Origin: Bacteroidales bacterium
GTDB taxonomy: Bacteria > Bacteroidota > Bacteroidia > Bacteroidales > F082
Assembly: GCA_017395365.1 (NCBI GenBank)
Contig: JAFPUN010000002.1
Location: 49,126 to 113,125 of the forward strand
DNA: 64,000 bases
Reading direction: 5' to 3'
This document shows positions 9,371-34,464 of this stretch, one piece after another (positions within the stretch are counted from its first letter, which is position 1; each line of letters opens with the position of its first letter). Made by a program: the position numbers and the translations under genes. The notes below the pieces were generated by a model that had not been told where the DNA came from, made no database searches, and worked only from the letters and a program-made list of their open reading frames with translations.

Positions 9371-9400
9371 TTTCAATTATTTATTATTCGTATCAAGAGT

Positions 9401-9524
9401 TTCCCTTCGGGAATGGAGTACTCTTTTTTTTCGTTTTCGCGGCAGCTTCAAACAACATCCAACCCTTTGGCTTCTATTGCCGCCGCAATATAGACTTGTC
9501 CCTCCTCCATTCCCGAAGGGAATC
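9401..9524. repeat. Nested palindromic element, copy 1
   Basis: Outer arms TTCCCTTCGGGAATGGAG and CTCCATTCCCGAAGGGAATC enclose inner arms GCGGCAGC and GCCGCCGC, separated by a 32-nt loop. It fills the gap between the S41 protease gene and yidD and ends 2 bp from the yidD stop codon. Confidence 0.8.
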
Positions 9525-9526
9525 CC

Positions 9527-9757
9527 CTACGGGACTGGGTCATAGCCGCTACCGCCCCAAGGGTTGCACGAGAGGATGCGTTTGAAGGTGAGCCAGCCAC
9601 CCTTGAAGAAACCGTATTTCTCAATGGCCTCGATACCATAGTTGGAACAGGTGGGCGTATAGCGACAGCTGTTGCCAATGAAAGGCGACAATGTCACCTG
9701 ATAAATCCGAATCAAGAGGATCAGGAACTTAGCGGGTAGTTTTGCAATTTTTTTCAT
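9527..9757 (-). CDS. yidD: Membrane protein insertion efficiency factor YidD
   Basis: 76 residues from the ATG at 9755-9757. The YidD core is intact: [31 protein letters not shown], then [25 protein letters not shown], with the three conserved Cys. The protein is a small amphipathic inner-membrane-associated factor that assists YidC-dependent insertion. It overlaps the 3' end of rnpA by 29 bp, as in many bacteria. The last two codons and the TAG stop (CCG TAG GGG) lie at the edge of a palindromic repeat. Confidence 0.93.
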
Positions 9758-10139
9758 AGGTCTTGGCAATCTCCAGAACGACTTTTTCAGTCTTCTTGAG
9801 CATCTCTTCGTAGTTATGGATGACCGTAGCCGTATAGACTAACGCAACATCAGCGGAAATATTATCCCTTTGGCAGATTTCATAAAGGGCGGACTTGTTC
9901 TTGCGCCATGCCTCACGGATAAGGCGTTTCACGCGATTACGCTTGAAAGCATGATGGAAGCGTTTTTTCGATACCGAAACCAATAGACGGACCGTTGGCG
10001 GCCGACTATCGTCGTGACGGAAGAGGTAGATGGCCCGATAAGGATAGACTGAAATGCCCGAACCTCGGTCGAAGAGCGCCTGGATGTCGTTTTCCTTGCA
10101 AATACGCTCGTATTTCGGTAAACCTTCGGGGGCGACCAT
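9729..10139 (-). CDS. rnpA: Ribonuclease P protein component
   Basis: 136 residues from the ATG at 10137-10139. The RNase P protein signature is complete: [27 protein letters not shown], including the RNR RNA-binding motif. It helps the catalytic RNA remove tRNA 5' leaders. An upstream TTG at 10163 is not needed. It lies in the order hemD, rnpA, yidD on the minus strand, and yidD begins inside its 3' end. The usual rpmH neighbour is absent, as is common in Bacteroidota. Confidence 0.94.
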
Positions 10140-10168
10140 AGAGCAAAACGATTTGGTTGGCAACGCGT

Positions 10169-10933
10169 TTATTTCTTCTTGGTCTTTTTGTTTTCGGCAG
10201 CCACATATTCCTCAATGGCCATGGTTATGGAAGGGGCTGTTTGCGTGGGAGCGCGGAAACTGAGCGTGAAGCCAGCATCGACAATGGCTTGACATGTGGC
10301 ATCACCGAAACCTCCGATGGCCACATCACCTTGTTGGAAATCAGGGAAGTTCTCTTTCAGCGACTGGATGCCCATGGGGCTGAAGAAGACCAACATGTCA
10401 TAGTCATTGATCTTCACCACATCCTTCAGGTCGGCAGGCACGGTGCGGAATATCACGGCCTTGGTGAAGTTGAGCTTGGCGGCGGTCAGCAGGTCGATGG
10501 TGGCATCGGAACTGATGTCGGAGCAGCAGTAAAGGTACTTCTCGTCCTTGTGCTTCTTCATGATGTCGATGAGGTCGTTCAAGGTCTGGTTGCCGTAGAA
10601 AACCTTGCGCTTGCGATATTGAACATAACGTTGCAGATAGTAGGCGGTCGACTCGTTGATGCAGAAATACTTCAAAGTTTCGGGGACAGTATATCGCATT
10701 TCCTTGGCAACGCGGAAGAAATGGTCGATGGCATTGCGGCTGGTGAGGATGATGGCCGTGTATTCCGGAAGTTTGATGTGTTCCTGGCGGAGCTCGCTTG
10801 CCGTGACATCGTCAAGCTTGATGAACTTCTCAAATGTGAAATTCACGCCATATTTCTTCATCATGTCGGCAAAGGGGGTTTTCGAAATGTCTGCAGGCTT
10901 GGGCTGCGACACCAAAATCGACTTAATCTTCAT
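10169..10933 (-). CDS. hemD: Uroporphyrinogen-III synthase
   Basis: A 254-residue two-lobed HemD-type protein that closes and isomerises hydroxymethylbilane in tetrapyrrole synthesis. Recognisable segments are the N-terminal strand KSILVSQPKP, AIILTSRNAIDHFF (residues 59-72), CINESTAYYLQ, YCCSDISSDATIDLL, and DMLVFFSPMGIQSL (about 185-198). HemD sequences are weakly conserved. The call also rests on its position beside DUF4271 and rnpA, a standard Bacteroidota cluster. The extreme C-terminus is a Lys-rich tail (KKTKKK). It starts 30 bp before rnpA and is probably co-transcribed with it. Confidence 0.85.
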   Translation of the reverse strand: MKIKSILVSQPKPADISKTPFADMMKKYGVNFTFEKFIKLDDVTASELRQEHIKLPEYTAIILTSRNAIDHFFRVAKEMRYTVPETLKYFCINESTAYYLQRYVQYRKRKVFYGNQTLNDLIDIMKKHKDEKYLYCCSDISSDATIDLLTAAKLNFTKAVIFRTVPADLKDVVKINDYDMLVFFSPMGIQSLKENFPDFQQGDVAIGGFGDATCQAIVDAGFTLSFRAPTQTAPSITMAIEEYVAAENKKTKKK

Positions 10934-10998
10934 CTTTTTTCTTCTTTTTTAAGAACTAAAAACACTCAATTTTTCCCACCTCTGAATTGTATAACTCA

Positions 10999-11841
10999 TT
11001 AAAATACAGTTCCCTGACTAAAGTATCGCCAGACTGCAGTCACGAGCGTTGCAACGGGTGCGATTTCGAGGGCGCAAAAATACAAAAAAATATAAAACGC
11101 AGGTATTTTTGTTGAAACTCTCGTTTCAATCACCCCGATGACAAGCCTCACAATTGCCGCCAAACCCAACACTCCAACGCCAGCCCATACGAAGTATTTT
11201 GAGGGATTGTAGAGCAGTAGCAGCAGCAATGGGACCATGATGATAAGGGTAAAAATGGACACTGAGAATTGAACCGTCATCTGTCGGTCGACTGTCTCAT
11301 GGGTGTCGAAAAGCCAATTGACGATATGCAGGACGGCAAACCGAAGTAGCACCCATCCCGTCATGGCCGCGCAGATGATGCCAAACACACGCATCACATT
11401 ATAGGTGGACACATCGTGCGAGAGCACAACGCAACTCTTCTGAACGAAGAGCGCAATGAGGAGAATATAGCCCAACATGAACGACACACAGAGGAAACTG
11501 CGTTGCGGGTTCCATTCCCTGAGCAGTTGGTTGGTGTGTGCCACCCCTCCCGGCACGCTCAACACCTGACGGAACTGGCGGGGATAGAGCTGCTTGTTGA
11601 GCACGATGAGCAACAGCAATACACCCAACAACGCCAAGTTCCATCCCTGAAGTACCTCATACGACATCCTCGGCAGCGGAATAAGCGAGCCTTGGAACCC
11701 CGATGTGATAAAACTAGGCACAACACTATCGAGCGCCACGCTGTCAACAGCCTGCAAAGTGTCAGCAACTTGCACCGTATCAATGGGTTGAACCTTATCT
11801 ACAAAGGGAGGCGTGTAGAATATGTCGGTATACTGCGGCAT
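10999..11841 (-). CDS. DUF4271 membrane protein
   Basis: 280 residues. The N-terminal 75 residues are soluble with alternating VDTVQVADTLQAVDS-type sequence, followed by six or seven hydrophobic helices (about 82-98, 125-145, 160-180, 200-222, 225-245, 255-272). The segment LLREWNPQRSFL before the second helix and the C-terminal YFCALEIAPVATL are typical of DUF4271. Its function is unknown; it is consistently next to hemD in Bacteroidota. Here it is the first gene of the run DUF4271-hemD-rnpA-yidD, with a TATTTTTG promoter box. Confidence 0.85.
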   Translation of the reverse strand: MPQYTDIFYTPPFVDKVQPIDTVQVADTLQAVDSVALDSVVPSFITSGFQGSLIPLPRMSYEVLQGWNLALLGVLLLLIVLNKQLYPRQFRQVLSVPGGVAHTNQLLREWNPQRSFLCVSFMLGYILLIALFVQKSCVVLSHDVSTYNVMRVFGIICAAMTGWVLLRFAVLHIVNWLFDTHETVDRQMTVQFSVSIFTLIIMVPLLLLLLYNPSKYFVWAGVGVLGLAAIVRLVIGVIETRVSTKIPAFYIFLYFCALEIAPVATLVTAVWRYFSQGTVF

Positions 11842-11862
11842 GAAAGGTCATTTTTTCCGCTG

Positions 11863-11870
11863 CAAAAATA
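11863..11870 (-). promoter_or_regulatory. -7 box for the DUF4271-hemD-rnpA-yidD run
   Basis: TATTTTTG on the minus strand, 22 bp before the DUF4271 start. It is divergent from the pta promoter. Confidence 0.6.
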
Positions 11871-11878
11871 ATGGATTA

Positions 11879-11911
11879 TTTGCAAACCGACACAAAAACT
11901 TACTAACTTTG
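11879..11911 (+). promoter_or_regulatory. Promoter of pta-ackA
   Basis: TTTG at 11879-11882, 21 nt, then TAACTTTG at 11904-11911: a full match to the Bacteroidota housekeeping promoter. It leaves a 5' leader of about 75 nt before the pta start. Confidence 0.75.
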
Positions 11912-11992
11912 CAGTCTTATCTTGAAATGAACAATTAAACAATAATCAATCAACAAATCAAAGATTCAACGTAGTTAATTAAACATAACAAC

Positions 11993-13006
11993 ATGGATTT
12001 AATGCAAGAAATCATTGCCAATGCCCAAGCTAACAAACAGCGCATTGTGCTCCCCGAGGGCGACGAGCCCCGCACCCTGAAAGCCGCCGACCGTCTTTTA
12101 GCTGACGGTGTCGCCGACATCATCCTCATCGGTCCCGCCGAGAAAATCAAAGAGATGACCGCCGAGTTCGGTCTCCAAAACATCGGCAAGGCCCGCATCG
12201 TCGACCCGAAGAACAACCCCGACAAGCAGAAATATGCCGACCTGCTTTACGAACTGCGTAAAGCCAAGGGCATGACGCCCGAGCAAGCCGACGACCTGGC
12301 CCAGAATTTCATGTATCTCGGCATCCTCATGGTCAAGGCTGGTGAGGCCGATGGTCTCGTCAGCGGTGCCCGCAGCACCACCGGCGACATGCTCCGTCCC
12401 GCCCTGCAAATCATCAAGACCGTGCCTGGCGTGACCTGCGTCAGCGGCGCCTTCACGATGTTCCTGCCCGAGGGATGCCCCTACGGCACCAACGGCCGCA
12501 TGGTCTTTGCCGACTGCGCCGTCACGCCCATGCCGACGGCCGAGCAACTGGCTGAAATCGCCATCTGCACCGCCGACACCGCCAAGGCCATCGCCAAGAT
12601 CGACCCCGTCACCGCCATCCTGAGCTTCTCCACCAAGGGCAGCGCCAAGCATGAGGTGGTCGACAAGGTCATCGAAGCCACGCGTATCGCCAAGGAGCGT
12701 CGTCCCGACCTCGTCCTCGATGGTGAACTGCAAGCCGACGCCGCCATCGTGCCTTCGGTGGGTGCCAGCAAGGCTCCCGGCAGTGATGTCGCCGGCAAGG
12801 CCAACACCCTCGTGTTCCCCTGCCTCGAAGTCGGCAACATCGCATACAAACTCGTCCAGCGTCTGGCTGGTGCCGAAGCCGTCGGTCCCGTGCTGCAAGG
12901 CCTCGCCAAGCCCTGCAACGACCTCAGCCGCGGCTGCTCGATTGATGACGTTTACAAATTGGTCGCCATCACCTGCAATCAGGCTATCGCACAAAAACAG
13001 AAATAA
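11993..13006 (+). CDS. pta: Phosphate acetyltransferase
   Basis: A 337-residue single-domain Pta (no DRTGG or P-loop N-terminal domain), converting acetyl-CoA and phosphate to acetyl phosphate. Conserved segments are RIVLPEGDEPRTLKAA (residues 17-32), KAGEADGLVSGA (115-126), FADCAVTPMPTAEQLAEIA, ILSFSTKGSAKH and DGELQADAAIVP (about 243-254). It precedes ackA by 67 bp and almost certainly forms an operon with it for acetate and ATP production. A 28-bp palindromic repeat sits between the two genes. Codon use is strongly biased, as expected for a highly expressed gene. Confidence 0.96.
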   Translation: MDLMQEIIANAQANKQRIVLPEGDEPRTLKAADRLLADGVADIILIGPAEKIKEMTAEFGLQNIGKARIVDPKNNPDKQKYADLLYELRKAKGMTPEQADDLAQNFMYLGILMVKAGEADGLVSGARSTTGDMLRPALQIIKTVPGVTCVSGAFTMFLPEGCPYGTNGRMVFADCAVTPMPTAEQLAEIAICTADTAKAIAKIDPVTAILSFSTKGSAKHEVVDKVIEATRIAKERRPDLVLDGELQADAAIVPSVGASKAPGSDVAGKANTLVFPCLEVGNIAYKLVQRLAGAEAVGPVLQGLAKPCNDLSRGCSIDDVYKLVAITCNQAIAQKQK

Positions 13007-13013
13007 TACGCTT

Positions 13014-13041
13014 GTAGAGACGCGATTAATCGCGTCTCTAC
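13014..13041. repeat. 28-bp GTAGAGACG palindrome, copy 1
   Basis: GTAGAGACGCGATT pairs with AATCGCGTCTCTAC as a perfect inverted repeat. It lies between pta and ackA. The same-length palindrome recurs at 43967-43994 and, inside malQ, at 50675-50702. Without a T-run it is not an obvious terminator. Confidence 0.85.
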
Positions 13042-13073
13042 CTACACAATAATAACAACATCAACAATTCAAC

Positions 13074-14279
13074 ATGAAAATATTAGTCCTCAACTGCGGC
13101 AGTTCCTCCATCAAATACCAATTGCTGGAGATGGAAAACGCCAATTCATCGCGCCTGCTGGCCAAAGGCCTCTTGGAGCGCATCGGCCTCGAAATGGGCG
13201 AATTCACCCACAAATACAATGGCGAGAAATACTACGAGCAACTCCCCATCCCGAACCACACCGAAGGCATCAAGTTGGTGCTGAAGGCTTTGGTCGACCC
13301 GAAGATGGGTGTCATCAAAGACCTGAAAGAAATCAACGCCGTCGGTCACCGCGTGGCCCACGGTGGCGAGAAGTTCACCAAGAGCGTCCTCATCGACAAC
13401 CAAGTCATCAAGGGCATCGAAGACCTCTGTGACCTCGCTCCTTTGCACAACCCAGGCAGCCTGCAGGGCATCCACGCCATGGAAGAAGTGCTTCCCGGCA
13501 TCCCGATGGCCGCCGTGTTCGACACCTCGTTCCACAGCACCATGCCGCCTGAGGCCTACCTCTATGCCGTGCCTTACGAGTACTACGACAAGTACCGCGT
13601 GCGCCGCTATGGCTTCCACGGCACCAGCCACAAATACGTGGCCGAGAAGGCCGCCGCTTTCGTTGGCATGGACTGGAAGAAGTCGAAGATCGTGACCTGC
13701 CACCTCGGCAGTGGCGCCTCCATCGCCGCCGTCGAGTACGGCAAGTCGGTGGAGACCTCGATGGGCTTCACCCCCGTTGAAGGCCTCGTAATGGGTAGCC
13801 GTACAGGCGACCTCGACCTCGGCGCTTTCATGTACATCATGGACAAGGAAGGCTACACGACCAAGGAGATGAACACCCTGGTCAACAAGAAGTCGGGCCT
13901 CGTGGGCATCACGGGCGGCAAGCAGGACATGCGCGACGTGCGTGCCGGCAAGGAAGAAGGCGACGAGCGCTGCACCTATGCCTTCAACATGTTCGCCCAC
14001 CGCGTGAAGAAGTACATCGGCGGCTACATGGCCGTGATGAACGGTGCCGACCTCATCGTGATGACTGGCGGCATCGGCGAGAACGCCTGGTTCATGCGTG
14101 AAGCCATCCTCGAGAACATGGAAGGCCTCGGCATCGAATTCGACCCCTCAATGAACAAGGAAACCATCGGCGACGCTGGTGTGATCTCGACGCCTAACTC
14201 CAAGGTCAAAGTGGTGGTGTATCCTACCGACGAAGAGTTCGTCATCGCCCAGGACACCTACAACTTGGTGACGAAATAA
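13074..14279 (+). CDS. ackA: Acetate kinase
   Basis: 401 residues, full length for the family. AckA converts acetyl phosphate and ADP to acetate and ATP. Signatures are MKILVLNCGSSSIKYQL at the N-terminus (ASKHA phosphate-1 motif with Asn7), AHGGEKF, FDTSFH (about residues 146-151), RYGFHGTSHKYV with catalytic His/Arg region, HLGSGAS, and VMTGGIGENAW near residue 330. It is the second gene of the pta-ackA operon, downstream of a promoter at 11879-11911. Transcription probably ends at the hairpin at 14306-14369. Confidence 0.97.
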   Translation: MKILVLNCGSSSIKYQLLEMENANSSRLLAKGLLERIGLEMGEFTHKYNGEKYYEQLPIPNHTEGIKLVLKALVDPKMGVIKDLKEINAVGHRVAHGGEKFTKSVLIDNQVIKGIEDLCDLAPLHNPGSLQGIHAMEEVLPGIPMAAVFDTSFHSTMPPEAYLYAVPYEYYDKYRVRRYGFHGTSHKYVAEKAAAFVGMDWKKSKIVTCHLGSGASIAAVEYGKSVETSMGFTPVEGLVMGSRTGDLDLGAFMYIMDKEGYTTKEMNTLVNKKSGLVGITGGKQDMRDVRAGKEEGDERCTYAFNMFAHRVKKYIGGYMAVMNGADLIVMTGGIGENAWFMREAILENMEGLGIEFDPSMNKETIGDAGVISTPNSKVKVVVYPTDEEFVIAQDTYNLVTK

Positions 14280-14305
14280 GAAAATACGGAAATCGTGTTT
14301 TTATT

Positions 14306-14369
14306 GAACACGGATTTCACGGATGACACGGATCGGCTCCGTCAAATCCGAGAAATCCGTGTTCTTCTT
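14306..14369. terminator. Long inverted repeat acting as a bidirectional terminator
   Basis: GAACACGGATTT (14306-14317) pairs with AAATCCGTGTTC (14353-14364), with extra ACGGAT repeats in the loop and a T-rich right flank. It lies between the convergent ackA and YARHG-protein genes. The ACACGGATTTCACGGAT core is also a common dispersed repeat type in this phylum. Confidence 0.6.
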
Positions 14370-15512
14370 TTATTTCGACCAGAACTCAATCCATTCCCTC
14401 TCATCTTTGCTCATCTTGCTCATGTCGTCAATGTAGTCAGGATTGGGAATGTACCAAGCTGTCGACTCGAAGAATTTCTTCAGCCCTTGGTCCTTGAACA
14501 CATGGCCGCGATAAGCGAACGGAAGGTTCTTCATGATGCGTTTATCTTCCTTGGTCAGGCCAAAATCTTCGTCTTCAAAGGTCCATAAATACCATTTGGC
14601 ATATTGCCGTTTGACAGCATTCATCACGTCCGAAGCATTCCCATCGCCACCCCACAACATCATATTAGGGATAAACTTATAGATTTCCAATTCCCCTTCA
14701 GGATGGAAGTTCTTCTTATGATAAGAGATGCCACCTTTCTGCATGTGGAATAAAGGATCATTATTATATAACTCACCTCCGTTCGACTGTCTTCCCACGC
14801 CTTTCATGGTCCATTCGCTAGCGCTCTTGAAGAAGGTAGGACGAATGGCAAAAGACTCACATTCACCCATATCGACGTTTAGCGTAAAGTCATCGATCTG
14901 ATGGTTAGCCCAGCGGTTGGCGGCGGTCAGCACGTAGTCGAAATCATACTCGGCACCCACATAGGTCGACGCGTCGAAGACATAGGTGTGTTCCACGATG
15001 TTGAGGCCTTTCTTGAAGGTGGCATTAAAATGGTAGACAAACAAATACGGGATTCCTTCCATGAATTCCATCTCGCGTCCCAGTTCAAGCTCGCGTTGCT
15101 TCGAGAGCTCGTCGAACTTTCCATTGTGGTAATAACCAGTTTCATTGCCTTCGACATGCGACACCTGATAGTTCAAGCGCTCGCCATTGATGTACACAGT
15201 AAAGTCATGCATGTAGGGGTGGTCTACAAGTTTTTTGTATTCTTCTTCAGAAATATCCCAAGCACCGCTGGGCGGCATGGCTTCGAAACCCACCAAAAGC
15301 GTTTTTTCGTTACCAGGATTAAAGAACTCATAATAGACATGGACATGGATCATCCGATCTCGTCCCGTAATGTCAAGCACTTCCTTCTTCACCGAAATCT
15401 CGGTCTCGGTGATCGGAATCAGTTGGTTGCCCGACGTGAAGTATACGCCATCGTTGGCTTTCGCTCCAATGAACGAAAGAACCATCAATAAAAGAATGAG
15501 TGTTTTTTTCAT
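14370..15512 (-). CDS. Exported YARHG-domain protein
   Basis: 380 residues from the ATG at 15510-15512; the frame continues upstream but only there does a signal peptide appear (MKKTLILLLMVLSFIGAKA). The C-terminal 60 residues match the YARHG domain: LTKEDKRIMKNLPFAYRGHV, then FKDQGLKKFFESTAWYIPNP. The middle (about residues 25-290) is a beta-rich domain with DGVYFTSGNQLIPI near the start. YARHG domains are extracellular and presumed to bind the cell wall or polysaccharide. It is convergent with ackA and shares a strand with the small PAS gene 43 bp upstream. Function is unknown. Confidence 0.8.
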   Translation of the reverse strand: MKKTLILLLMVLSFIGAKANDGVYFTSGNQLIPITETEISVKKEVLDITGRDRMIHVHVYYEFFNPGNEKTLLVGFEAMPPSGAWDISEEEYKKLVDHPYMHDFTVYINGERLNYQVSHVEGNETGYYHNGKFDELSKQRELELGREMEFMEGIPYLFVYHFNATFKKGLNIVEHTYVFDASTYVGAEYDFDYVLTAANRWANHQIDDFTLNVDMGECESFAIRPTFFKSASEWTMKGVGRQSNGGELYNNDPLFHMQKGGISYHKKNFHPEGELEIYKFIPNMMLWGGDGNASDVMNAVKRQYAKWYLWTFEDEDFGLTKEDKRIMKNLPFAYRGHVFKDQGLKKFFESTAWYIPNPDYIDDMSKMSKDEREWIEFWSK

Positions 15513-15555
15513 GTGTAGTAGAGTTGAACGTTTAACTGTTTGATAATTGGCAAGG

Positions 15556-15891
15556 TTAACCACGGTCATAGTGCGGCATCTCGTCAGGTAGGATAATGGA
15601 AAACTCGATGAGTCCACCGACAACTTGCTTGGCGTCGTCCTCATACCAAGGCGTCTGGTAGATGAGTTTCTTCTTGCCTTTCTTCGAGATGGTGTAGACA
15701 TTGGTGGCAGCATCATCCAAGAGGTGACGTATGATTTGTTGAGAACGCTCGTTGTGGCACTTCATCAGGTCGCGCCCACGGGCATCGCCGTTCACCTCAA
15801 TGGAGCTGTCGTTTTGGTACAAGATTTCGCCGTCCTTGGCGCTGATCGTAATGGCTATATTAAGCCCTTTGAAATAATCGAGTTGATTCAT
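15556..15891 (-). CDS. Small single-domain PAS-like protein
   Basis: 111 residues with no signal peptide and no output domain. The fold pattern is that of a PAS core: GLNIAITISAKDGEILYQND at residues 9-28, then RGRDLMKCHNERSQQIIRHLL, and a terminal strand GGLIEFSIILPDEMPHYDR. The CH.ERS..I..L element is seen in small PAS proteins of Bacteroidota. It may bind a small ligand in the cytoplasm; partner and signal are unknown. It is divergent from the LptF/G permease gene, with the two -7 boxes only 9 bp apart. Confidence 0.65.
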   Translation of the reverse strand: MNQLDYFKGLNIAITISAKDGEILYQNDSSIEVNGDARGRDLMKCHNERSQQIIRHLLDDAATNVYTISKKGKKKLIYQTPWYEDDAKQVVGGLIEFSIILPDEMPHYDRG

Positions 15892-15910
15892 ATTGTGCGT
15901 ATTTTTTCGG

Positions 15911-15935
15911 CAAAGATAGAATTTTTCTAAATTTG
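15911..15935. promoter_or_regulatory. Divergent promoter pair, PAS gene and LptF/G gene
   Basis: On the minus strand TATCTTTG (15911-15918) serves the PAS gene. On the plus strand TAAATTTG (15928-15935) lies 20 bp before the permease ATG. The two promoters overlap. Confidence 0.65.
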
Positions 15936-15954
15936 CAGCGTTGTTTTTACAAAA

Positions 15955-17409: not shown

Positions 17410-17450
17410 ACAATCGGCAGCCGAGATTCGACAGCCATATTAGGAAAACC

Positions 17451-18668
17451 ATGAAAATACTCCTTCTTTGCAACAAGCCCCCCTACCCTGCCTCCGAAGG
17501 CGGTCCCATGGCGATGAACAGCATCATCACCGGACTGCTGGATGCTGGCCACCATGTCAAGATATTGGCAGTCAACAGTGAGAAGTTCAACGTCAAGGAG
17601 AGCGACATCCCTGAAGACTACAAGAAAAAGACGGGCATCGAACTCATCGATGTCGACTTGAGCGTCAAGCCCATGAACGCCTTCCTCAATCTTTTCACCA
17701 AGAAATCGTATCATGTGGAGCGTTTCATCTCTGACAACTTCAAGGCCAGACTCATCGAAGTGCTCGACAAGGAGCAGTTCGACATCGTGCAATTGGAGAT
17801 GCTTTACATGGCGCCTTATGTCGATGTTATCCGCGCCCATTCGAAGGCCATGATTGTGCTGCGTGCCCACAATGTAGAGCACAAAATTTGGGAACGCATT
17901 GCCAAGGAGACCCAATCGCCATTGAAGCGTTGGTATATCAACCATTTGGCCAAGACTTTGAAGGAATACGAACTCAACGCCTTGGAGACCGTCGATGGCA
18001 TCGCTGCCATCACACGCAAAGACGCCGCCTTCTTCAGGAAATACAGTTCCAAGCCCGTAATCGACATCCCGTTTGGCGTTTATCCCGAAGAGTTCACCCC
18101 AAAATACGAGATAGAAGGCAAGCCCAAGTTCTACCATATCGGCTCCATGAACTGGATGCCCAACGAGGAAGGCATTCGATGGTTCATCAATGAGGTGCTG
18201 CCCAAGACCGTGGAAAAAGTGTATGATTTCGTCTACCATCTGGCGGGACGCAACATGCCCGAGTGGCTCACTACGATGAAAGACCCTCATATCGATGTTG
18301 TCGGCGAAGTGCCTGATGCCAAGGCTTTTGTCTCCAATAATGATGTGGCCATCGTGCCCCTACTCTCGGGCAGCGGTATCCGCATCAAGATCATCGAGTC
18401 GATGGCGATGGGCAAGACCGTCATCACCACGCGCGTGGGTGCCGAGGGCATTCTCTACGACGAGGATGTCAACATCATCATCGCCGAAAACAAGGCCAAG
18501 ATGGTGGAGGCCATCCGCTCCATCAATGAGAACCCGCAGATTGCCGTCAAAATAGGCCAAGCGGCGCGACGACTTGTCGAAGAGACTTACGACAACCGCA
18601 AGATCATCGCCCGACTGCTGATGTTTTACGAGCAGATTAAGCCAGGAAGTAAGATTAGTTTTCTTTGA
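17451..18668 (+). CDS. Family 4 glycosyltransferase
   Basis: A 405-residue GT-B fold enzyme, probably cytoplasmic or peripheral membrane. The N-terminal domain begins MKILLLCNKPPYPASEGGPM with a glycine-rich acceptor loop. RAHNVEHKIWERIA (about residues 137-150) and DIPFGVYPEEF (about 205-215) are typical of GT4. The C-terminal donor-sugar motif is GSGIRIKIIESMAMGKTVI, the EX7E-like element. Donor and acceptor cannot be predicted. The gene follows the permease by 41 bp, and a second GT4 gene follows, so this looks like a surface-glycan block. Confidence 0.88.
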   Translation: MKILLLCNKPPYPASEGGPMAMNSIITGLLDAGHHVKILAVNSEKFNVKESDIPEDYKKKTGIELIDVDLSVKPMNAFLNLFTKKSYHVERFISDNFKARLIEVLDKEQFDIVQLEMLYMAPYVDVIRAHSKAMIVLRAHNVEHKIWERIAKETQSPLKRWYINHLAKTLKEYELNALETVDGIAAITRKDAAFFRKYSSKPVIDIPFGVYPEEFTPKYEIEGKPKFYHIGSMNWMPNEEGIRWFINEVLPKTVEKVYDFVYHLAGRNMPEWLTTMKDPHIDVVGEVPDAKAFVSNNDVAIVPLLSGSGIRIKIIESMAMGKTVITTRVGAEGILYDEDVNIIIAENKAKMVEAIRSINENPQIAVKIGQAARRLVEETYDNRKIIARLLMFYEQIKPGSKISFL

Positions 18669-18742
18669 GTGACTATGGCTAAAGCCATCAGCCATAGTCA
18701 ACAATTAAACAATTAAACAGTGCAACAATCAACAAAAAACTT

Positions 18743-18750
18743 TATCTTTG
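18743..18750 (+). promoter_or_regulatory. -7 box upstream of the second glycosyltransferase
   Basis: TATCTTTG 18 bp before the ATG at 18769. It shows that the upstream TTG at 18748 cannot be the start. Confidence 0.65.
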
Positions 18751-18768
18751 CCCCCTAAATCCGTTGAG

Positions 18769-19947: not shown

Positions 19948-19949
19948 AT

Positions 19950-21626: not shown

Positions 21627-21646
21627 TCCAGAAAAACAGCAATATC

Positions 21647-22093
21647 ATGAACGAAGATACAAAAACCCCATGCCCTTATTGCGGGACTTTGGTTGACAAA
21701 ACAGAAGAAGTCTGTCCTCAATGCTATGCGCCCCTCAAGCAGACTCAAAATACCCCTGAGCCAAGCGAAGGAGTCGAAGGGCCGACAAAACCAGCAAAGC
21801 AACAAGCCAAACTTCTTGCTCCTACAGCCGTCGCCTCATTGGTCCTTGGCATCCTTTCCATCAATTTCAGCTCACTGATCATCCCTGGCTTTATCTTAGC
21901 AGCCATAGGTAAACGTAAGGCGAATGAAGGCTTTGATGCCATCGCTGCAAACCCTGACACCTACACTGGCGCGGGCATGCTCAACGCTGGTCGCATCACT
22001 TCCAAGGTAGGGCTCATCCTCAGCATCGTCATGATTCCTATATGGATATTCTATATCGCCATCTATGCCATTGCACTCAGCGAAGGCTTCTAA
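21647..22093 (+). CDS. Zinc-ribbon small membrane protein (DUF4190-like)
   Basis: 148 residues. A zinc ribbon at the N-terminus has Cys9/Cys12 (CPYC) and Cys23/Cys26 (CPQC). A linker follows, then two hydrophobic helices at about residues 60-80 and 120-143, with a basic loop GKRKANEGFD between. This architecture matches small DUF4190-like proteins of unknown role. The linker peptide PEPSEGVEGP (about residues 37-46) is encoded by a dispersed palindromic repeat and is probably not part of the ancestral protein. The gene follows ettA by 20 bp. Confidence 0.75.
   Translation: MNEDTKTPCPYCGTLVDKTEEVCPQCYAPLKQTQNTPEPSEGVEGPTKPAKQQAKLLAPTAVASLVLGILSINFSSLIIPGFILAAIGKRKANEGFDAIAANPDTYTGAGMLNAGRITSKVGLILSIVMIPIWIFYIAIYAIALSEGF
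21753..21781. repeat. CCTGAGC/GTCGAAGG-type repeat inside the zinc-ribbon gene
   Basis: CCCCTGAGCCAAGCGAAGGA then GTCGAAGGG, read in frame as PEPSEGVEG. It shares the 14-mer GTCGAAGGGCCGAC with the repeat embedded in the Kdo transferase gene (36715-36735, opposite strand). Confidence 0.7.
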
Positions 22094-22183
22094 AAAAGTT
22101 CAGACCATTGTTATTTTTTCATGCCGAATAGCACCCAATTTCTAACTAAAGCTTATATTAACAAACAAACAATAGTTTAAACG

Positions 22184-24541: not shown

Positions 24542-24564
24542 AGGTTTTGTTTTCATATATGTTG

Positions 24565-24602
24565 AAAGCCGCCTCGTCTATTCGGGGCGGCTTTCTGTTT
24601 TC
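24565..24602. terminator. Rho-independent terminator
   Basis: AAAGCCGCCTC pairs with GGGGCGGCTTT across an 8-nt loop, then CTGTTTTCTG. It lies between the convergent C10 protease and phosphofructokinase genes. Confidence 0.8.
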
Positions 24603-24623
24603 TGTAGGGCTGTCAAACCGGAA

Positions 24624-25841: not shown

Positions 25842-25880
25842 TGTTATGTTGTTTAGTTAGTTCGTTGTTTCTCTTTTTCA

Positions 25881-25969
25881 GCGTCATCGCGGACTTGATC
25901 CGCGATCTCCTGAGCATTGGAGTATCCTTTGCGTTCAGGAGATGGCGGATGTCCCTCCGCCATGACGCT
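25881..25969. repeat. Interspersed palindromic element, copy 2
   Basis: GCGTCATCGCGGACTTGATC at one end and GGATGTCCCTCCGCCATGAC at the other form two hairpin arms around TCCTGA/TCAGGA. The reverse complement matches the element at 2072-2190. It separates the phosphofructokinase and GH92 genes. Confidence 0.8.
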
Positions 25970-25998
25970 CAGGGGGTAGGCTTGTCCTCCCCAGACTA

Positions 25999-28968: not shown

Positions 28969-29039
28969 AGAATCCATATTTGAGGGTGTAAAAGTAGAAA
29001 TAAAAACTGTCCGTTTTACAAGAGCAGGTGTTTTTTTGA

Positions 29040-29218
29040 GATTCCCAAGGGAATGGAGTTTCTCCAACCTGTTGTTATCCGCGGCGGCTTATGACGTTCC
29101 CAACAATGAATTCTTTTCTGCCGCCGCTAAACATAAAACAAACACCTCTCCATTCCCGCAGGGAATCCTCTGCCGCCGCATTACACGCCGAACTTATTCT
29201 CCATTCCCTACGGGAATC
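29040..29218. repeat. Nested palindromic element, copy 2, plus an extra right half
   Basis: The full element is 29040-29168: outer arms ATTCCCAAGGGAATGGAG and CTCCATTCCCGCAGGGAATC, inner arms GCGGCGGC and GCCGCCGC, loop 31 nt. A second right half follows at 29172-29218 (GCCGCCGC to GGGAATC). It lies in the roughly 390 bp gap between the GH92 gene and the first Asp-box gene; the rest of the gap holds promoter sequence. Confidence 0.85.
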
Positions 29219-29294
29219 TCTGGCACAACTTTTGCAACGATACCTAATTTGGACAAAAAAAAGTCATTTTAGCTTCCATAATCAAAAAAATGTC

Positions 29295-29302
29295 TATATT
29301 TG
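29295..29302 (+). promoter_or_regulatory. -7 box of the first Asp-box gene
   Basis: TATATTTG followed by TAG, 62 bp before the ATG, in an AT-rich stretch. Confidence 0.6.
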
Positions 29303-29364
29303 TAGCCTCAAAATTGAGCACAATCATAATCACAAATTATTAACTCATTAAAAAACAAAACATC

Positions 29365-31467
29365 ATGAAGAAATTGTTTTTACTAACTTTGAGCCTTGCT
29401 TTAGGCTTTAGTGCAATCGCACAACATCGCGTTGCAAAGTCTGACATCCGTTCAGGTGTTGCCCGCGACCAAAAAGTTACCGTAGGCAAAGACATGGCAG
29501 AACCCACTGCTGCCCAATTTGCCCCTCAAGCCCCCGTCGTGGTGAGCAGCAGATATCAAGGCGACCTTGATTACGCTGGTACCATCATGACCTTCTACGA
29601 CCTCCAGTCGAACCAGTTTGTTGCCAACCGTATGTATCAGCTGCCCAATGGTTCGGTTGGTGTTACCGCCACCATGTCGCACCTGACCAGCAACTCTTCC
29701 GTTCCGGATCGTGGTACGGGTTACAACTTCTACAAGCCCATGGAAAGCAAAGAGTTTTCCTCTGGCGAATGGATCTTTGGCACTGTCGAAAACGGTGAAG
29801 GCCCCGATGCTCGCGTTGAGACCTGGATGTCGGGTTGGCCGACCATCGCCCAATGGGGTGATAATGGCGAAATCCTCCTTTCTCACGGCAATGGAGCTTT
29901 GAACTGCTACACCAGAGAGCACGCCGGTGAAGGCGAATGGCAATTCCGTGGCGCTCTGCCGAACTATCCCGAAGGCTATCCCTACAATGAATACCCGACC
30001 TGGCCGAGAGTGGTCACCACTGGCGATCACCACAATATCATCCACGTGGCTGCCGCTTTGCAACACAGCATCAGCAGCGACGAGACCGACATCCGTACGG
30101 TGTTGTTCCGTTCGGAAGACGCCGAAAACTGGACGGTGAGCTATGGTCCCCTCGAGGAGTACAACTATCACATCGGCACTTTCTCGGCTGACGACTATGC
30201 CCTGGCTGCCAATGGTCACACCGTGGCCCTCCTCTATTCCGGCCAACTGACCAACAGCGTCTGGATGTTCAAGTCGACCGACGACGGTCTGACCTGGAAC
30301 ACCTTCAAGATTTGGGAGAACCCCTATGAAGGCAGATCATTCGATTTTGAAAATGGTGAGCCTTGGGGCATGGAAGACACCCTCTTCATCCCCATGAATG
30401 GTGCCATCACCGTCGACAACAATGGCACTGCCCACGTTGCCCTCAACACCCACGAAATCATCCACACCACGGATAACGAGGAAGGCTACTACACCTTGTA
30501 CTATGGCCGCACCGTTGACGGCATCCTCTATTGGAACGACACCCAAGAGGCTCCTATGCAAGACACCGAGCACCCTGAATACACAGATCCTCACCTCAGA
30601 AATCCCAACCCGCACCATGTTGCTCGTCTGTGGTGGCCGGATCCCGAAAACCCGGGTTATGTCACCATCGTGGGCGACACCACCAAATGGATCGGTTGGA
30701 TGCCCTACTATGAGGAGTTTGGTGATTGGAGCAACTGGACCAACTATTATTATCACGGCGATGACTACTATCCCAAGTTTTATGGTACTTCTGGTCAACC
30801 CGCCCTTTCGTGCGACCCCCAAGGCAACCTGGCTTGCGCCTATTCAGCACCTTGCTCGGATCCCGATAATAGCGGCTACTACAACATGAATGGCAACCAA
30901 TACTTCTTCAGACATGTCTATGTAAGCTATCGCAATGTCGACGAAGGTTATTGGCATCAAATCATTGACGACATCTCCGATGGTCAAGATGCCTTCGAAT
31001 TCAGTGAGCAAGAGAACACCTTCACCATGTCGGTGCCCAACACCGTCAACGATGGTGAATTCTGGTTCGGCTTCCAAACCGACCCGGACGTCGGCTGGTG
31101 GTGGGGCTCCAATGCCGCCCAGACCCAAGCCTCTGAAAACGTCATCAATGCCGTCAGAGTTCTTGCCGATCCCGAAATGGTGAACGTCCCCGAAAACCAT
31201 GATGCCGTCAATCCTGTGACCACCACCCGCATCTATCCCAACCCCGTCGTCGACCAAATGACCATCGAAGTGAACGCCGCCCAGGCTTCCGAGATGAGCA
31301 TCAGCGTCTACAACCTCATGGGCCAGAAGGTGATGGACAAGAACGTCAGCATCAACACGGGTATCAACACCCCGACCATCAACACCAGCAGCCTCAGCAG
31401 CGGCGTCTACTTCGTCACCGTGAAGGCCAACGGCTTTGAGAACACCATGAAGTTCGTTGTGAAGTAA
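29365..31467 (+). CDS. T9SS-secreted Asp-box (BNR/sialidase-fold-like) protein, paralogue A
   Basis: 700 residues. Signal peptide MKKLFLLTLSLALGFSAIAQ; large central domain rich in Trp, Tyr, Asp and Gly; C-terminal T9SS type A domain from about residue 620 (RIYPNPVVDQMTIEV ... GVYFVTVKANGF). One clear Asp-box, STDDGLTW, is at about residue 305, and several degenerate ones are visible, suggesting a beta-propeller such as sialidases have. I see no Arg triad or other catalytic signature, so an enzymatic role cannot be claimed; glycan binding or degradation at the cell surface is possible. A paralogue follows at 31974 after a terminator and repeats. Confidence 0.82.
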   Translation: MKKLFLLTLSLALGFSAIAQHRVAKSDIRSGVARDQKVTVGKDMAEPTAAQFAPQAPVVVSSRYQGDLDYAGTIMTFYDLQSNQFVANRMYQLPNGSVGVTATMSHLTSNSSVPDRGTGYNFYKPMESKEFSSGEWIFGTVENGEGPDARVETWMSGWPTIAQWGDNGEILLSHGNGALNCYTREHAGEGEWQFRGALPNYPEGYPYNEYPTWPRVVTTGDHHNIIHVAAALQHSISSDETDIRTVLFRSEDAENWTVSYGPLEEYNYHIGTFSADDYALAANGHTVALLYSGQLTNSVWMFKSTDDGLTWNTFKIWENPYEGRSFDFENGEPWGMEDTLFIPMNGAITVDNNGTAHVALNTHEIIHTTDNEEGYYTLYYGRTVDGILYWNDTQEAPMQDTEHPEYTDPHLRNPNPHHVARLWWPDPENPGYVTIVGDTTKWIGWMPYYEEFGDWSNWTNYYYHGDDYYPKFYGTSGQPALSCDPQGNLACAYSAPCSDPDNSGYYNMNGNQYFFRHVYVSYRNVDEGYWHQIIDDISDGQDAFEFSEQENTFTMSVPNTVNDGEFWFGFQTDPDVGWWWGSNAAQTQASENVINAVRVLADPEMVNVPENHDAVNPVTTTRIYPNPVVDQMTIEVNAAQASEMSISVYNLMGQKVMDKNVSINTGINTPTINTSSLSSGVYFVTVKANGFENTMKFVVK

Positions 31468-31493
31468 GTTCAACACTCACACAACGTGAAACC

Positions 31494-31521
31494 AAAAAGG
31501 AGGCTTCGGCCTCCTTTTTTT
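31494..31521 (+). terminator. Rho-independent terminator of Asp-box gene A
   Basis: GGAGGC-TTCG-GCCTCC with a UUCG-type tetraloop, preceded by A5 and followed by T7. Confidence 0.9.
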
Positions 31522-31527
31522 GTGAGG

Positions 31528-31845
31528 TTCCCTTCGCGAAATAGAGTTTCTTCATCTTTCTTATATCCGCGGCGGCTTGTCGTGTTTCCAACATTCAAAT
31601 CTTTTCTGCCGCCGCTTGATAGATGAAACTCATTCTCCATTCCCGAAGGGAATCTCCTACATTTGGGATTCCCTGCGGGAATGGAGTTTCTTCATCTTTC
31701 TTATATCCGCGGCGGCTTGTCGTGTTTCCAACATTCAAATCTTTTCTGCCGCCGCTTGATAGATGAAACTCATTCTCCATTCCCGAAGGGAATCTCCTGC
31801 CGCCGCAATTATAATACAAACAGCTCTCCATACCCGAAAGGAATC
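31528..31845. repeat. Nested palindromic element, copies 3 and 4 in tandem plus a half copy
   Basis: Copy 3 is 31528-31654 (its left arm is degenerate: TTCCCTTCGCGAAATAGAG). Copy 4 is 31668-31794, with period 140 bp. A right half follows at 31799-31845. Inner arms are GCGGCGGC/GCCGCCGC with an identical 31-nt loop in both copies. It fills the gap between the terminator of Asp-box gene A and the promoter of gene B. Confidence 0.88.
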
Positions 31846-31880
31846 TTCTATAAAAACCGAAAAAAAAACTCCAAAACCAC

Positions 31881-31909
31881 TTGCATATTAGAAAAAACCA
31901 TTATCTTTG
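31881..31909 (+). promoter_or_regulatory. Promoter of Asp-box gene B
   Basis: TTG at 31881-31883, 18 nt, TATCTTTG at 31902-31909. The leader before the ATG is about 60 nt. Confidence 0.65.
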
Positions 31910-31973
31910 CTCCACATTTCCTATAAAAGAAAACACAATCAATCAACTCAATTATCAACTAAAACCACACAAA

Positions 31974-33932
31974 ATGAAAAAGTTATTTACTTTAGCTTTA
32001 GCCTTGTTGGTAGCCATGGCTGGCTACTCGCAAGTGAGAACGATGTCTCACAAAGACGTCAAGCACAATGTGGCCACCATGCAGAAGGCCAATGGCTTTG
32101 AGACGCTGCAGAATGTGCAGACCGAGCCTACCATGATGCGTGCCGAACCGACCGAGTTGGACTACAGCACCTACGACTGGCAGACCAACGCTGGCTACAT
32201 CACCAGAACGATCACTTGGCCTGATGGCATCGCCAACTTTGCCTCCACTTGGGCCAGCACCACTAGCTACAGCGACCGTGGCACCAACATCGCCACCTAT
32301 GACAGTGAAAAAGACGAATGGATTCCGCTCGGTGGCCGTATCGAAAACGAGAGAACCGGCTTCGGCTCCATCGCCCGCTACAAAGAGAACGGCATCGTCA
32401 TTGCAGCCCACACTGCCGACAACCTCGGCATCTACATCGCTGAAGACAAGGACAATATGACGCCTGAATGCGCCACCGGTGTCCTTTACACCAACAACCC
32501 TGACTACACCCACCCCTCGGTGATGACCTCGGGTGCCGAGCGCGACATCATCCATGTGGCTGCTGCCAAGTTCACGGCTTGGGAAGGCGAAGTGTATGAG
32601 CCCATCCGCTACTGGCGTTCGAGCGACGGCGGCCAGACCTGGGACAAGGAGTGCGTCGAACTGCCCTTCACGACTGCTGAATACGGCCTCAACTGGGGTA
32701 CCAACACCTATTATTGGATGGAGACCACCGAAGACAACCGCCTCGCCCTTGTCATCAACAACACTTGGAGCGACGGTATGGTCATCTACAGCGACGACAA
32801 CGGCGAAACCTGGGAAAGAAAGGTGTTCTATCACCATCCCGATCCGTTTGGAACCTGGCCGAGTGAGGGTTGGGGCTTCGGCTGCCCCCGCTGGACTTCC
32901 TGCCAATGGAATGCCAACGGCGAGCTCTGCATGGCCTACGAATGGAACGGCACCAACGACGTAGCCACCTCTGAAGATGGTGGTTATTTCCCGGGCATGG
33001 GCGGTGTCGCTTTCTGGAGCGAATACCTGCCTTTCCAAGGTTATAACGACGGCAGCTACGGTTATGGTTACGACCCCAACAACCCGATTACCCCCACTCA
33101 CGGTCAGCCCTTCATCATCGACACGGCCTATATCTATGAAGACCTCTTTGCTTCATGGTGGCCTTGGAGCGACGCCAACCATGAGATGTGGCCCGAGTAT
33201 TTCGGCTCCCTCGCACCTTTGACCGACGAAGGTTTCTGGGAAGATCCCTATGAAGCCACTGAATTCAACATTGACGTGACCGAAGCCCTCGGTGACCTTC
33301 ACGGACACTACAACTGCGGTATCTGCGCCATGCCTATCCTTTGCATGGTGCCCGGCACTGGCGGCAGCGACATGGTTGCTGTGTGGATGATGATGGATGA
33401 AAACAACATGGATGCCGACAGATACTTCTTCAAGATTTTCGCCAACTACTCGGGCGACGGCGGTCTCACTTGGTCGCACTTCGAACCCCTTACTTGGGAC
33501 TTCCAATTCACCAACAGTGAATTCGCCTATCCTCAAGCCACTGTCATCGGTCACACCCTCGTTGTGGCCGTGCAAGAAGACGGTGCTCCCGGCACTTATG
33601 TCCAATCAGAAGAGGGTGCCAGCCAAAGCGCCAACGATAACTTCTATCGTGGCTTGACCTTCGAGCTGGATGAACTCTTCCCGAATGCCGGTGTTGGTGT
33701 TCCGGAAGTGAACCACAACACGCACATGAGCGTCTATCCCAACCCCGCTGTCAACCAGCTGCAAGTCGTCCTCAGCCAGAACGCTGACATCGTGATCTAC
33801 AACATGATGGGTCAGAGCGTGATGAGCGTCAAGGGCAACGCTGGCGTCAACAGCGTCAACATCAGCGAACTCACTGCTGGCGTCTACTTCGTGAATGCTG
33901 GCAACGACACGCAGAAGCTCATCGTGAAGTAA
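31974..33932 (+). CDS. T9SS-secreted Asp-box (BNR/sialidase-fold-like) protein, paralogue B
   Basis: 652 residues from the ATG at 31974; the frame extends upstream through the promoter. Signal peptide MKKLFTLALALLVAMAGYSQ. Three clean Asp-boxes, SSDGGQTW (about residue 214), SDDNGETW (about 272) and SGDGGLTW (about 491), indicate a beta-propeller. The T9SS type A domain begins SVYPNPAVNQLQVVL near residue 585. The pattern RDIIHVAAA is shared with paralogue A (HNIIHVAAA), supporting common origin. No sialidase catalytic set is evident. It has its own promoter and terminator; repeats lie on both sides. Confidence 0.83.
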   Translation: MKKLFTLALALLVAMAGYSQVRTMSHKDVKHNVATMQKANGFETLQNVQTEPTMMRAEPTELDYSTYDWQTNAGYITRTITWPDGIANFASTWASTTSYSDRGTNIATYDSEKDEWIPLGGRIENERTGFGSIARYKENGIVIAAHTADNLGIYIAEDKDNMTPECATGVLYTNNPDYTHPSVMTSGAERDIIHVAAAKFTAWEGEVYEPIRYWRSSDGGQTWDKECVELPFTTAEYGLNWGTNTYYWMETTEDNRLALVINNTWSDGMVIYSDDNGETWERKVFYHHPDPFGTWPSEGWGFGCPRWTSCQWNANGELCMAYEWNGTNDVATSEDGGYFPGMGGVAFWSEYLPFQGYNDGSYGYGYDPNNPITPTHGQPFIIDTAYIYEDLFASWWPWSDANHEMWPEYFGSLAPLTDEGFWEDPYEATEFNIDVTEALGDLHGHYNCGICAMPILCMVPGTGGSDMVAVWMMMDENNMDADRYFFKIFANYSGDGGLTWSHFEPLTWDFQFTNSEFAYPQATVIGHTLVVAVQEDGAPGTYVQSEEGASQSANDNFYRGLTFELDELFPNAGVGVPEVNHNTHMSVYPNPAVNQLQVVLSQNADIVIYNMMGQSVMSVKGNAGVNSVNISELTAGVYFVNAGNDTQKLIVK

Positions 33933-33953
33933 TTCACTTAAACACACACTATG

Positions 33954-33983
33954 AAAAAAGGAGGCCAAAAGCCTCCTTTTTTT
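33954..33983 (+). terminator. Rho-independent terminator of Asp-box gene B
   Basis: A6 then GGAGGC-CAAAA-GCCTCC then T7. The sequence after the stem, GTGAGGTTCCCTTCG, is the same as after the terminator at 31494-31521. Confidence 0.88.
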
Positions 33984-33989
33984 GTGAGG

Positions 33990-34428
33990 TTCCCTTCGGG
34001 AATGGAGAAAAGCGTTTGTTGTTTTGCGGCGGCTGGTGAAATCTACAATTCGTCAGACCCTCTAGCCGCCGCATATTATAGATGATGAAACTCCATTCCC
34101 GCAGGGAATCTCCTTAAACCTGTGAATTCCGAGAATTTGAAACAGAGATTCCCTTCGGGAATGGAGAAAAGCGTTTGTTGTTTTGCGGCGGCTGGTGAAA
34201 TCTACAATTCGTCAGGCCCTCTAGCCGCCGCATATTATAGATGATGAAACTCCATTCCCGCAGGGAATCTCCTTAAACCTGTGAATTCCGAGAATTTGAA
34301 ACAGAGGTTCCCTTCGGGAATGGAGAAAAGCGTTTGTTATTTTGCGGCGGCTGGTGAAATCTACAATTCGTCAGACCCTCTAGCCGCCACATATTATAGA
34401 TGATGAAACTCCATTCCCGCAGGGAATC
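33990..34428. repeat. Nested palindromic element, three tandem copies (5 to 7)
   Basis: Units at 33990-34110, 34149-34269 and 34308-34428 have an exact 159-bp period. Outer arms are TTCCCTTCGGGAATGGAG and CTCCATTCCCGCAGGGAATC; inner arms GCGGCGGC and GCCGCCGC (GCCGCCAC in the third); loop 31 nt. The 38-bp spacers between units are nearly identical. The array fills the gap of about 530 bp between Asp-box gene B and pdxA; no gene is visible in it. Confidence 0.92.
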
Positions 34429-34464
34429 TAACCTCCTTTAAGTAAGTAAATTCCGAGAAGCAGT

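Follow-up and report, generated by a model that had tools for sequence, protein, structure and literature searches.

Many bacteria contain palindromes of the REP type. Like free-standing GIY-YIG homing endonuclease genes, such as those of the phage Seg and I-TevI types, the family described here has a small GIY-YIG gene that adjoins its apparent target, but the target is a 130-bp repeat with about 33 copies, and the gene lies between two of them. The family also resembles MITEs and solo LTRs, in that gene-less copies far outnumber gene-bearing units, and direct copies flank the gene while lone copies are found at an orthologous site. Unlike in those systems, the repeated unit has the form of a nested palindrome. 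No target-site duplication was seen outside the element, the comparison sites being too diverged.

Which enzymes are known to partner REP-type palindromes? The literature considered here names HUH-type tyrosine transposases (PMC3116915, PMC3733652, PMC6006769, PMC8266576). The REPIN/BIME elements associated with RAYT (TnpA-REP) share with our family inverted terminal hairpin repeats, a variable spacer of conserved length, a mostly extragenic position, tandem clusters and tens of copies per genome (PMC3116915, PMC6006769, PMC8266576). The initial annotation knew of no described family with this layout, a view that is not supported, since REPs paired in inverted orientation around a variable spacer of conserved length are REPINs/BIMEs (PMC3116915). 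However, our element lacks the GTAG/GTGG guide, and inside it an extra conserved 8-bp GC stem encloses a loop of 31 nt; a Y1 gene was not found near it, and the gene that lies between copies encodes a GIY-YIG endonuclease. Y1 transposases of subclass 1.2 (PMC6006769), which have stem-loop repeats in the same genus, likewise show short perfect hairpins that flank a small nuclease-like gene, but there the enzyme fold and the repeat sequences are different.

Results

A nested palindrome of about 130 bp occurs in the window, which is the whole 64,000-nt stretch of DNA analyzed here, as seven full copies plus two right halves, at the positions initially annotated apart from small corrections to arms and REPs. 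Each full element consists of two inverted REP hairpins and a conserved 8-bp inner GC stem around a loop, which is 31 nt long in the window copies and 32 nt in the 9401 copy. That copy (9397..9526) has yidD to one side and an S41 peptidase gene to the other, its left inner arm reads GCGGCAGC, and same-site copies exist in L158, L161, L162, L163, L167, L169 and L203. The full element at 29037..29169 has an orthologous copy in G099 (L094, core identity 0.99) and is followed by a right half at 29172..29219 comprising GCCGCCGC, a spacer and a REP. A tandem pair is formed by a full element at 31524..31654, the mutated left REP of which reads TTCCCTTCGCGAAATAGAG, and another at 31665..31796, and a second right half with a degenerate REP occupies 31799..31844. 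An array with a period of 159 bp contains full elements at 33986..34112, 34145..34271 and 34304..34430, the last having the right inner arm GCCGCCAC; the array has two copies in the sister genome G113. The pattern GCGGCGGC-N15-45-GCCGCCGC occurs five times in the window (mean 0.00 in 100 shuffles), and the REP pattern has 14 matches (shuffled mean 0.60). The outer end of the element is (T)GAG and the inner foot GGAG, and the tetranucleotide GTAG/GTGG is absent 5' of the hairpin. No Rfam family scored above its gathering score on the window. Separate terminator-like hairpins adjoin some of the window elements, and the GC stem has no trailing T-run.

The initial annotation took these copies for a genuine family, stronger than a simple REP, in which arms and spacing are kept while the loop drifts, and this was borne out beyond the window. 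A covariance model placed 33 full-length elements and one truncated match in the same genome, that of a rumen bacterium (2.1 Mb, 72.6% complete); its 67 matches reflect the scoring of each full place on both strands. When loops of 22-43 nt were permitted, 90 distinct copies were collected, those from related genomes not being independent of each other, and loop length was exactly 31 nt in 75 of them and 30-33 nt in all 90, so that the clustering near 31 nt anticipated from the window extends to the wider family. When R1 was searched against 295 genomes from the order, strong matches were confined to G000 and G028, with two weak ones elsewhere. Element-rich genomes make up 14 of 149 in the family, counted from R1 matches among those listed (best 23 per genome), and their distribution is patchy within a single genus. 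Viral contigs searched with one exact pattern gave no match. A simple ORF caller classed 73 of the 90 copies, those on short loci, and skipped 17; nine lay inside a heuristic ORF, two at an ORF edge, and the rest were extragenic. Among 62 placed copies, 26 were in convergent, 29 in tandem and 7 in divergent gene contexts, which favors 3' ends; on long loci (12 tandem, 6 convergent, 4 divergent) the bias is not clear.

At orthologous sites the REPs and arms differ by 4-8%, and the loop and spacers by 23-29%. The compensatory changes looked for in the arms are present in the REP hairpins, where stem lengths covary (125 concordant versus 7 discordant for 3- and 4-C/G stems, leaving out 6 REPs of other stem lengths and 19 off-pattern REPs); the GC arm shows them weakly (P 0.02), and the loop shows none. 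Selection on a folded form, as initially suggested, thus fits two local REP hairpins and, weakly, the GC arm, but does not extend to pairing inside the 31-nt loop: complementary cells numbered 226 against 237 expected (P lower 0.16). The loop consensus is nevertheless a dyad with a central TTAC-N5-GTAA and halves of similar column preferences, which we read as two like half-sites or as ancestry, with no stem. When four of the window copies were folded as single strands, one long stem between the left and right REPs was preferred. Such a stem was rejected because the loops of the two REPs vary independently (8 of 30 equal versus 8.6 expected).

The gene found between copies, GIY-A, belongs to a group of small stand-alone GIY-YIG endonucleases, defined by at least 73% identity to the G119 protein and present at 11 places in 9 genomes. 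GIY-A is not in the window. A family-A element is located both upstream and downstream of the gene at all 11 loci, and full family-A elements were found at both gene ends in 0 of 27 other small GIY-YIG loci, a fetched subset of the GIY-YIG matches from which the duplicate L315 and loci with flanks shorter than 150 bp were dropped. Within the same 149 genomes, GIY-A occurs in 9 of the 14 that are element-rich and in none of the 135 others (Fisher 2.6e-11, treating genomes as independent). The cassette is compact: a stop codon is at, or no more than 3 nt from, the downstream element in 8 of 11 loci, and a TAnnTTTG stretch, presumably a promoter motif, is situated 3' of the upstream element. GIY-A matches the Pfam GIY-YIG model (4.5e-12), and ten aligned proteins retain Tyr, Arg, Glu and Asn positions that we take to be the GIY-YIG catalytic residues, the invariant Glu66 among them. 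Of 45 pairs, 38 had saturated dS and were dropped; dN/dS was 0.03-0.46 in the remaining 7, and for pairs with dS below 2 (n=5) the median was 0.08 and the highest value 0.46. The GIY-A reading in G113 falls into two frames. Searches by sequence of NCBIfam, PHROGs, PADLOC and PDB gave no match to GIY-A. The gene was not found in five of the 14 element-rich genomes, namely the window's own (72.6% complete), G091 (99%), G092 (98%), G123 (93%) and G129 (82%), G091 having only weak R1 matches; elements therefore either outlive GIY-A or do without it.

At one orthologous site, a lone copy is present in G000, G113, G100, G126, L162 and L203, and copy-gene-copy in G119 and G028; L163 and L167, which have cores identical to those of G126 and G100 and are apparently the same genomes, were counted once in this tally. 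The composite copies of G119 and G028 are direct and 0.99 identical. Similarity to the lone G100/G126 copy is 0.91-0.92 for the G119 pair, whereas the identical G028 pair reaches only 0.60-0.68 with its lone orthologues, so that just one case supports duplication of a resident copy, and the same picture would result from gene conversion within an old composite. In five of 11 composites the flanking copies are dissimilar (direct identity 0.55-0.61), and in three of 11 they are slightly more alike when inverted. No orthologous composite turned up in the window's own genome when the G113 composite locus served as the query. Sites in relatives without the element were too diverged to yield a junction; neither a clean empty site nor a target-site duplication outside the element was seen at them. 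The suggestion that the element is a recombinase substrate stands in part, through the GIY-YIG partner and through clear in-place core inversions at two of 17 site clusters, with two further clusters leaning weakly the same way. L167 and L172 differ at 3 of 82 positions when inverted and 35 of 81 when direct, and L251 and L254 are 0.93 identical inverted and 0.58 direct.

Discussion

What might explain a REPIN-like palindrome that brackets a GIY-YIG gene? The family, together with the gene between its copies, suggests a kind of mobile DNA that has not been described. We consider it probable, at roughly 0.6, that the palindrome and GIY-A are the DNA and protein halves, respectively, of one two-part system. 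The best reading is that the palindrome, with which GIY-A is associated at every locus, is the boundary and putative target of a mobile cassette encoded by the GIY-YIG gene; we infer that GIY-A cuts the element, where it does so, and that it moves the element. A complete unit would then run element, promoter, GIY-A, element, and lone elements, including all of the window copies, would be its dispersed gene-less form. GIY-A most likely recognizes the paired REP hairpins, probably together with the GC stem, and nicks the element edges, and repair or insertion at the element would duplicate the whole element of about 130 bp. Entry of the cassette could thereby give element-gene-element, duplication without a cassette could give tandem arrays, and recombination between direct copies, or loss of the gene, could leave a lone element.

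It is unlikely, in comparison, that this is an ordinary REPIN/BIME family moved in trans by a Y1 (RAYT-type) transposase, with the GIY-YIG gene as a passenger or a homing gene landing on repeats. The layout fits REPINs, as do the hairpins in an inverted doublet, the arrangement in tandem arrays and the location outside genes; the genus is rich in Y1 genes, one of which is in the window at 318-773, and 26 of 81 Y1 loci have a 13-base word at least three times in their flanks, often as a stem-loop. These loci, returned or fetched in a PF01797 search of the window's own genome and 37 relatives in which further matches exist, nonetheless had no convincing copy of our repeat beside them in fetched flanks of about 0.7-1.5 kb (0 of 81), and four had only a two-mismatch REP look-alike. 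Among fetched loci clustered at 60% identity or more, no Y1 cluster was shared by every one of the 11 element-rich genomes that were tested first; the largest cluster, found in 9 of them, was missing from G028 (99% complete) and G092, yet present in the element-free G051 and G083. The GTAG guide, too, is absent.

More doubtful still is a host role for elements that are now immobile, as 3'-end structures under selection for mRNA protection, as bidirectional hairpins, or as gyrase or nucleoid sites. REPs and arms change more slowly than the loop and the spacers do, and the 62 placed copies prefer 3' ends, both of which are in keeping with it, but the preference is not clear on long loci, presence is patchy within one genus, the GC stem lacks a T-run while terminator-like hairpins stand separately beside window elements, and the GIY-A association is left unexplained. 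Invertible switches (invertons), in which a site-specific recombinase would act at the inverted REPs, are very improbable: the inversions at L167/L172 and L251/L254, and the weaker ones, speak for them, but the L251/L254 copy has a convergent stop codon 2-5 nt away on either side, a position that does not call for a promoter switch, and the window copies keep their orientation in G113, which is about 97% identical.

Does the GIY-A cassette have relatives? At locus L294 another GIY-YIG subfamily, 47% identical, is flanked by a different nested palindrome in direct copies, and direct repeats of at least 39 bp occur on both sides of 10 of 27 non-A GIY-YIG loci, 9 of 11 GIY-A loci and 5 of 300 control ORFs. 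We tentatively propose, at somewhat less than even odds, that small GIY-YIG endonucleases are the driving force behind a class of mobile DNA in bacteria. Each subfamily would have its own palindromic repeat as boundary and target, the repeat would be duplicated in full upon insertion, and lone repeats would spread in a REPIN-like manner without an HUH (Y1) enzyme; family A would be one case within that possible class. Among the PMC articles searched, no relevant paper on GIY-YIG enzymes with dispersed bacterial palindromes was found. If a palindrome family is tied to a GIY-YIG nuclease, this DNA architecture has also arisen together with an enzyme unrelated to the HUH transposases, stand-alone GIY-YIG proteins would gain a testable substrate, and the cutting and duplication of a 130-bp element would provide a ready assay for how repeats spread and arrays form.

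Results

The initial annotation placed seven full copies of the nested palindrome (family A, about 130 bp each) and two right halves in the window; all of its positions are exact, and chance is excluded by a wide margin. The left half consists of GAG, ATTCCC TTC GGGAAT (a hairpin of 6 bp with a 3-nt loop), GGAG, 16 to 22 nt and GCGGCGGC; after the loop, the right half consists of GCCGCCGC, 17 to 24 nt, CTCC, ATTCCC GAA GGGAAT and CTC. Further copies and loop lengths near 31 nt had been set as checks, and both are found: searched with a covariance model built on 26 copies, the window's own 2.1-Mb genome yields 33 places matched at full length and a single truncated one, and of 90 distinct copies, 75 have a loop of 31 nt and all 90 one of 30-33 nt, with 22-43 nt permitted.

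Compensatory change, also proposed as a check, is present in only some of the paired positions. Double changes affect 4 of the 20 stem pairs of the first alignment (0.9 in shuffles), two in the GC arm and two in the right REP. The C run and the G run of REP stems (3 or 4 each) agree in length in 125 cases and disagree in 7, and thus both REP hairpins are local structures constrained by pairing. The loops of the left and right REPs are independent, being equal in 8 of 30 copies (8.6 expected). The inner GC arm rarely changes, and its changes tend to be paired, T-A accounting for 6 of 15 departures at one pair (P 0.02, 36 copies after dereplication). The consensus of the central loop is a dyad around TTAC-N5-GTAA, and the column preferences of its two halves resemble each other; no covariation was found within it. 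Mean differences at three orthologous sites, where pairs are not independent, are 4-8% for the REPs, 5% for the GC arms, 23% for the loop and 28-29% for the spacers; REPs and arms are therefore held while the remainder drifts, mostly without change of length.

The sister genome G113 (identity about 97% across much of the window) has elements at the same four sites as the window, with two array copies versus three in the window and one extra element where the window has another palindrome. Between species, the core is clearly inverted in place in 2 of 17 site clusters (locus L167 versus L172, L163 and L161; L251 versus L254), and two further clusters lean weakly the same way. Gene 3' ends are preferred: 26 of 62 placed copies are convergent, 29 tandem and 7 divergent, a stronger preference than in background gaps of at least 60 bp (46, 147 and 78, respectively); long loci alone (6, 12 and 4) exhibit no clear bias.

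At least one element match occurs in 31 of 149 genomes of the same family, 29 of them in the window's genus (own genome included), where the spread is patchy; 14 of the 149 are element-rich (14 or more strand hits per genome, counted up to a ceiling of 23). An order-wide search of 295 genomes gave strong matches only in the own genome and G028, and one exact pattern was not found in viral contigs. Relatives that carry names are MAGs of uncultured Bacteroidales, many of them ruminant-derived (RUG358, "bacterium F082" and others).

Two intergenic palindromes of the window, AGAGACGCGATTAATCGCGTCTCT (13007-13046) and GACTATGGCTAAAGCCATCAGCCATAGTC (18657-18768), are unrelated to family A. G113 has different palindromes at these spots, one of them a family-A element, which suggests that different palindromes use common intergenic landing sites. 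Two secreted-protein genes with type IX sorting tails (29365-33932) lie between element clusters.

Because the element layout is that of REPINs, as outlined in PMC3116915, a Y1/RAYT partner was tested. Y1 genes are numerous in the genus. None of 81 Y1 loci examined has a convincing element copy nearby (there are four two-mismatch look-alikes), and no Y1 cluster is common to every element-rich genome tested; on these grounds Y1 was judged an unlikely partner.

Some of the Y1 genes have repeats of their own. A 13-base word, often a stem-loop, recurs at least three times in the flanks of 26 of the 81 loci (including L108, L115, L112, L121, L137, L153, L258 and L278), and the stem-loops differ by Y1 group (ACCCCGTAGGGGT, GCCCCGAAGGGGC, AGGCCGTTAGGCC, AGGGCAACGCCCT, GTGTCGAAGACAC, GTCCCGTAGGGAC). 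The window's Y1_Tnp gene (318-773, about 151 aa, motif Y---Q--HH) resembles subclass 1.2 as set out in PMC6006769, a subclass described there as generally without typical IS200 terminal structures. It is followed by TCGGCAGGGGTTTACACC-type repeats (775-915), which occur four times in the flanks of related genes in G113 and G143. The yidD-S41 intergenic site of relatives (e.g. L160, L176-L180, L188, L214) carries another short repeat, AGTCCCGTAGGGACGACA-N12-CAGGCGACGTGAGTCCCTGC, and variants; this type also flanks the own genome's Y1 gene at L053.

In both G119 and G028, the DNA between neighboring elements holds a small GIY-YIG endonuclease gene. Searches for the domain in 27 genomes, and then for the protein itself in 149, define a sharply separated group, GIY-A, found at 11 places across 9 genomes with identities of 73-100%; beyond it, full-length relatives reach at most 54%, and a few partial matches 61-63%. 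All 11 places have an element upstream and another downstream. In 8 of 11 the protein match ends 22-27 nt from the downstream element, and in 8 of 11 a stop codon is at, or within 3 nt of, that element (for L323, with its split frame, the count uses the DNA). Full family-A elements at both ends of the gene were seen in none of the 27 other small GIY-YIG loci examined; a few, notably L299 and L330, have isolated, weaker REP-like or GC-core matches. GIY-A is present in 9 of 14 element-rich genomes versus 0 of 135 others. It was undetected in the other five, which include the own genome (72.6% complete) and three that are at least 93% complete (G091, G092, G123). The catalytic positions of the GIY-YIG domain are kept in ten aligned members; of 45 pairs, 7 had a computable dN/dS, with values of 0.03-0.46. 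The G113 gene (L323, C32:19030-19369) reads in two frames, which could reflect decay or an assembly error.

Among small GIY-YIG genes outside GIY-A, 10 of 27 examined are flanked on both sides by direct copies of a repeat other than family A (L294 in G143:C73, L301, L336, L339, L332, L320, L334, L318, L292, L297), and at L294 that repeat, too, is a nested palindrome (143 nt). The GIY-YIG genes at L299 (G091:C1:183086) and L330 (G076:C47:32936), of 44-46% identity, have REP-A-like hairpins and a GC core nearby, respectively. Matches in G091 are only weak in the element search, so a diverged sister family may be present there.

Discussion

How might one palindrome come to stand alone, in arrays and around a gene? 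At one orthologous intergenic site, the own genome (C21:149613), G113, G100, G126, L162 and L203 have a lone element (L167 and L163, apparently G100 and G126 again, are counted once), whereas G119 and G028 have element - GIY-A - element with homologous outer flanks. Within each of these two composites the elements are direct and 0.99 identical. Both G119 copies match the lone copy of G100/G126 at 0.91-0.92, as would be expected if a resident element had been duplicated on entry of the gene; the G028 pair matches the lone copies at 0.60-0.68. Gene orientation is the same in G119 and G028, so a single old insertion kept in both lineages is also possible, its copies homogenized by gene conversion, which could mimic a fresh duplication. 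Across the 11 composites the outer flanks form up to seven groups, unmatched flanks being no proof of different sites, and the flanking elements are more alike as direct copies in 7, as inverted copies in 3 and tied in 1.

The simplest account of these sequence patterns would be a two-part system, a GIY-YIG cassette bounded by the nested palindrome, which is probably the target of the cassette. Given limits that include the 5 of 14 element-rich genomes without detected GIY-A and a cleavage that is putative, family A is classed as REPIN-like in its workings, though with another enzyme, and not as a member of the REPIN systems. Gene-less copies, the only form present in the window, are dispersed over the genome and may be self-mobile with the enzyme acting in trans or may be remnants of composites. 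Insertion of the cassette would duplicate the whole element to give a composite, array growth with short fillers would give tandem arrays, and collapse of composites would leave lone copies; together, duplication, array growth and collapse would explain the composites, tandem arrays and solo elements of this family.
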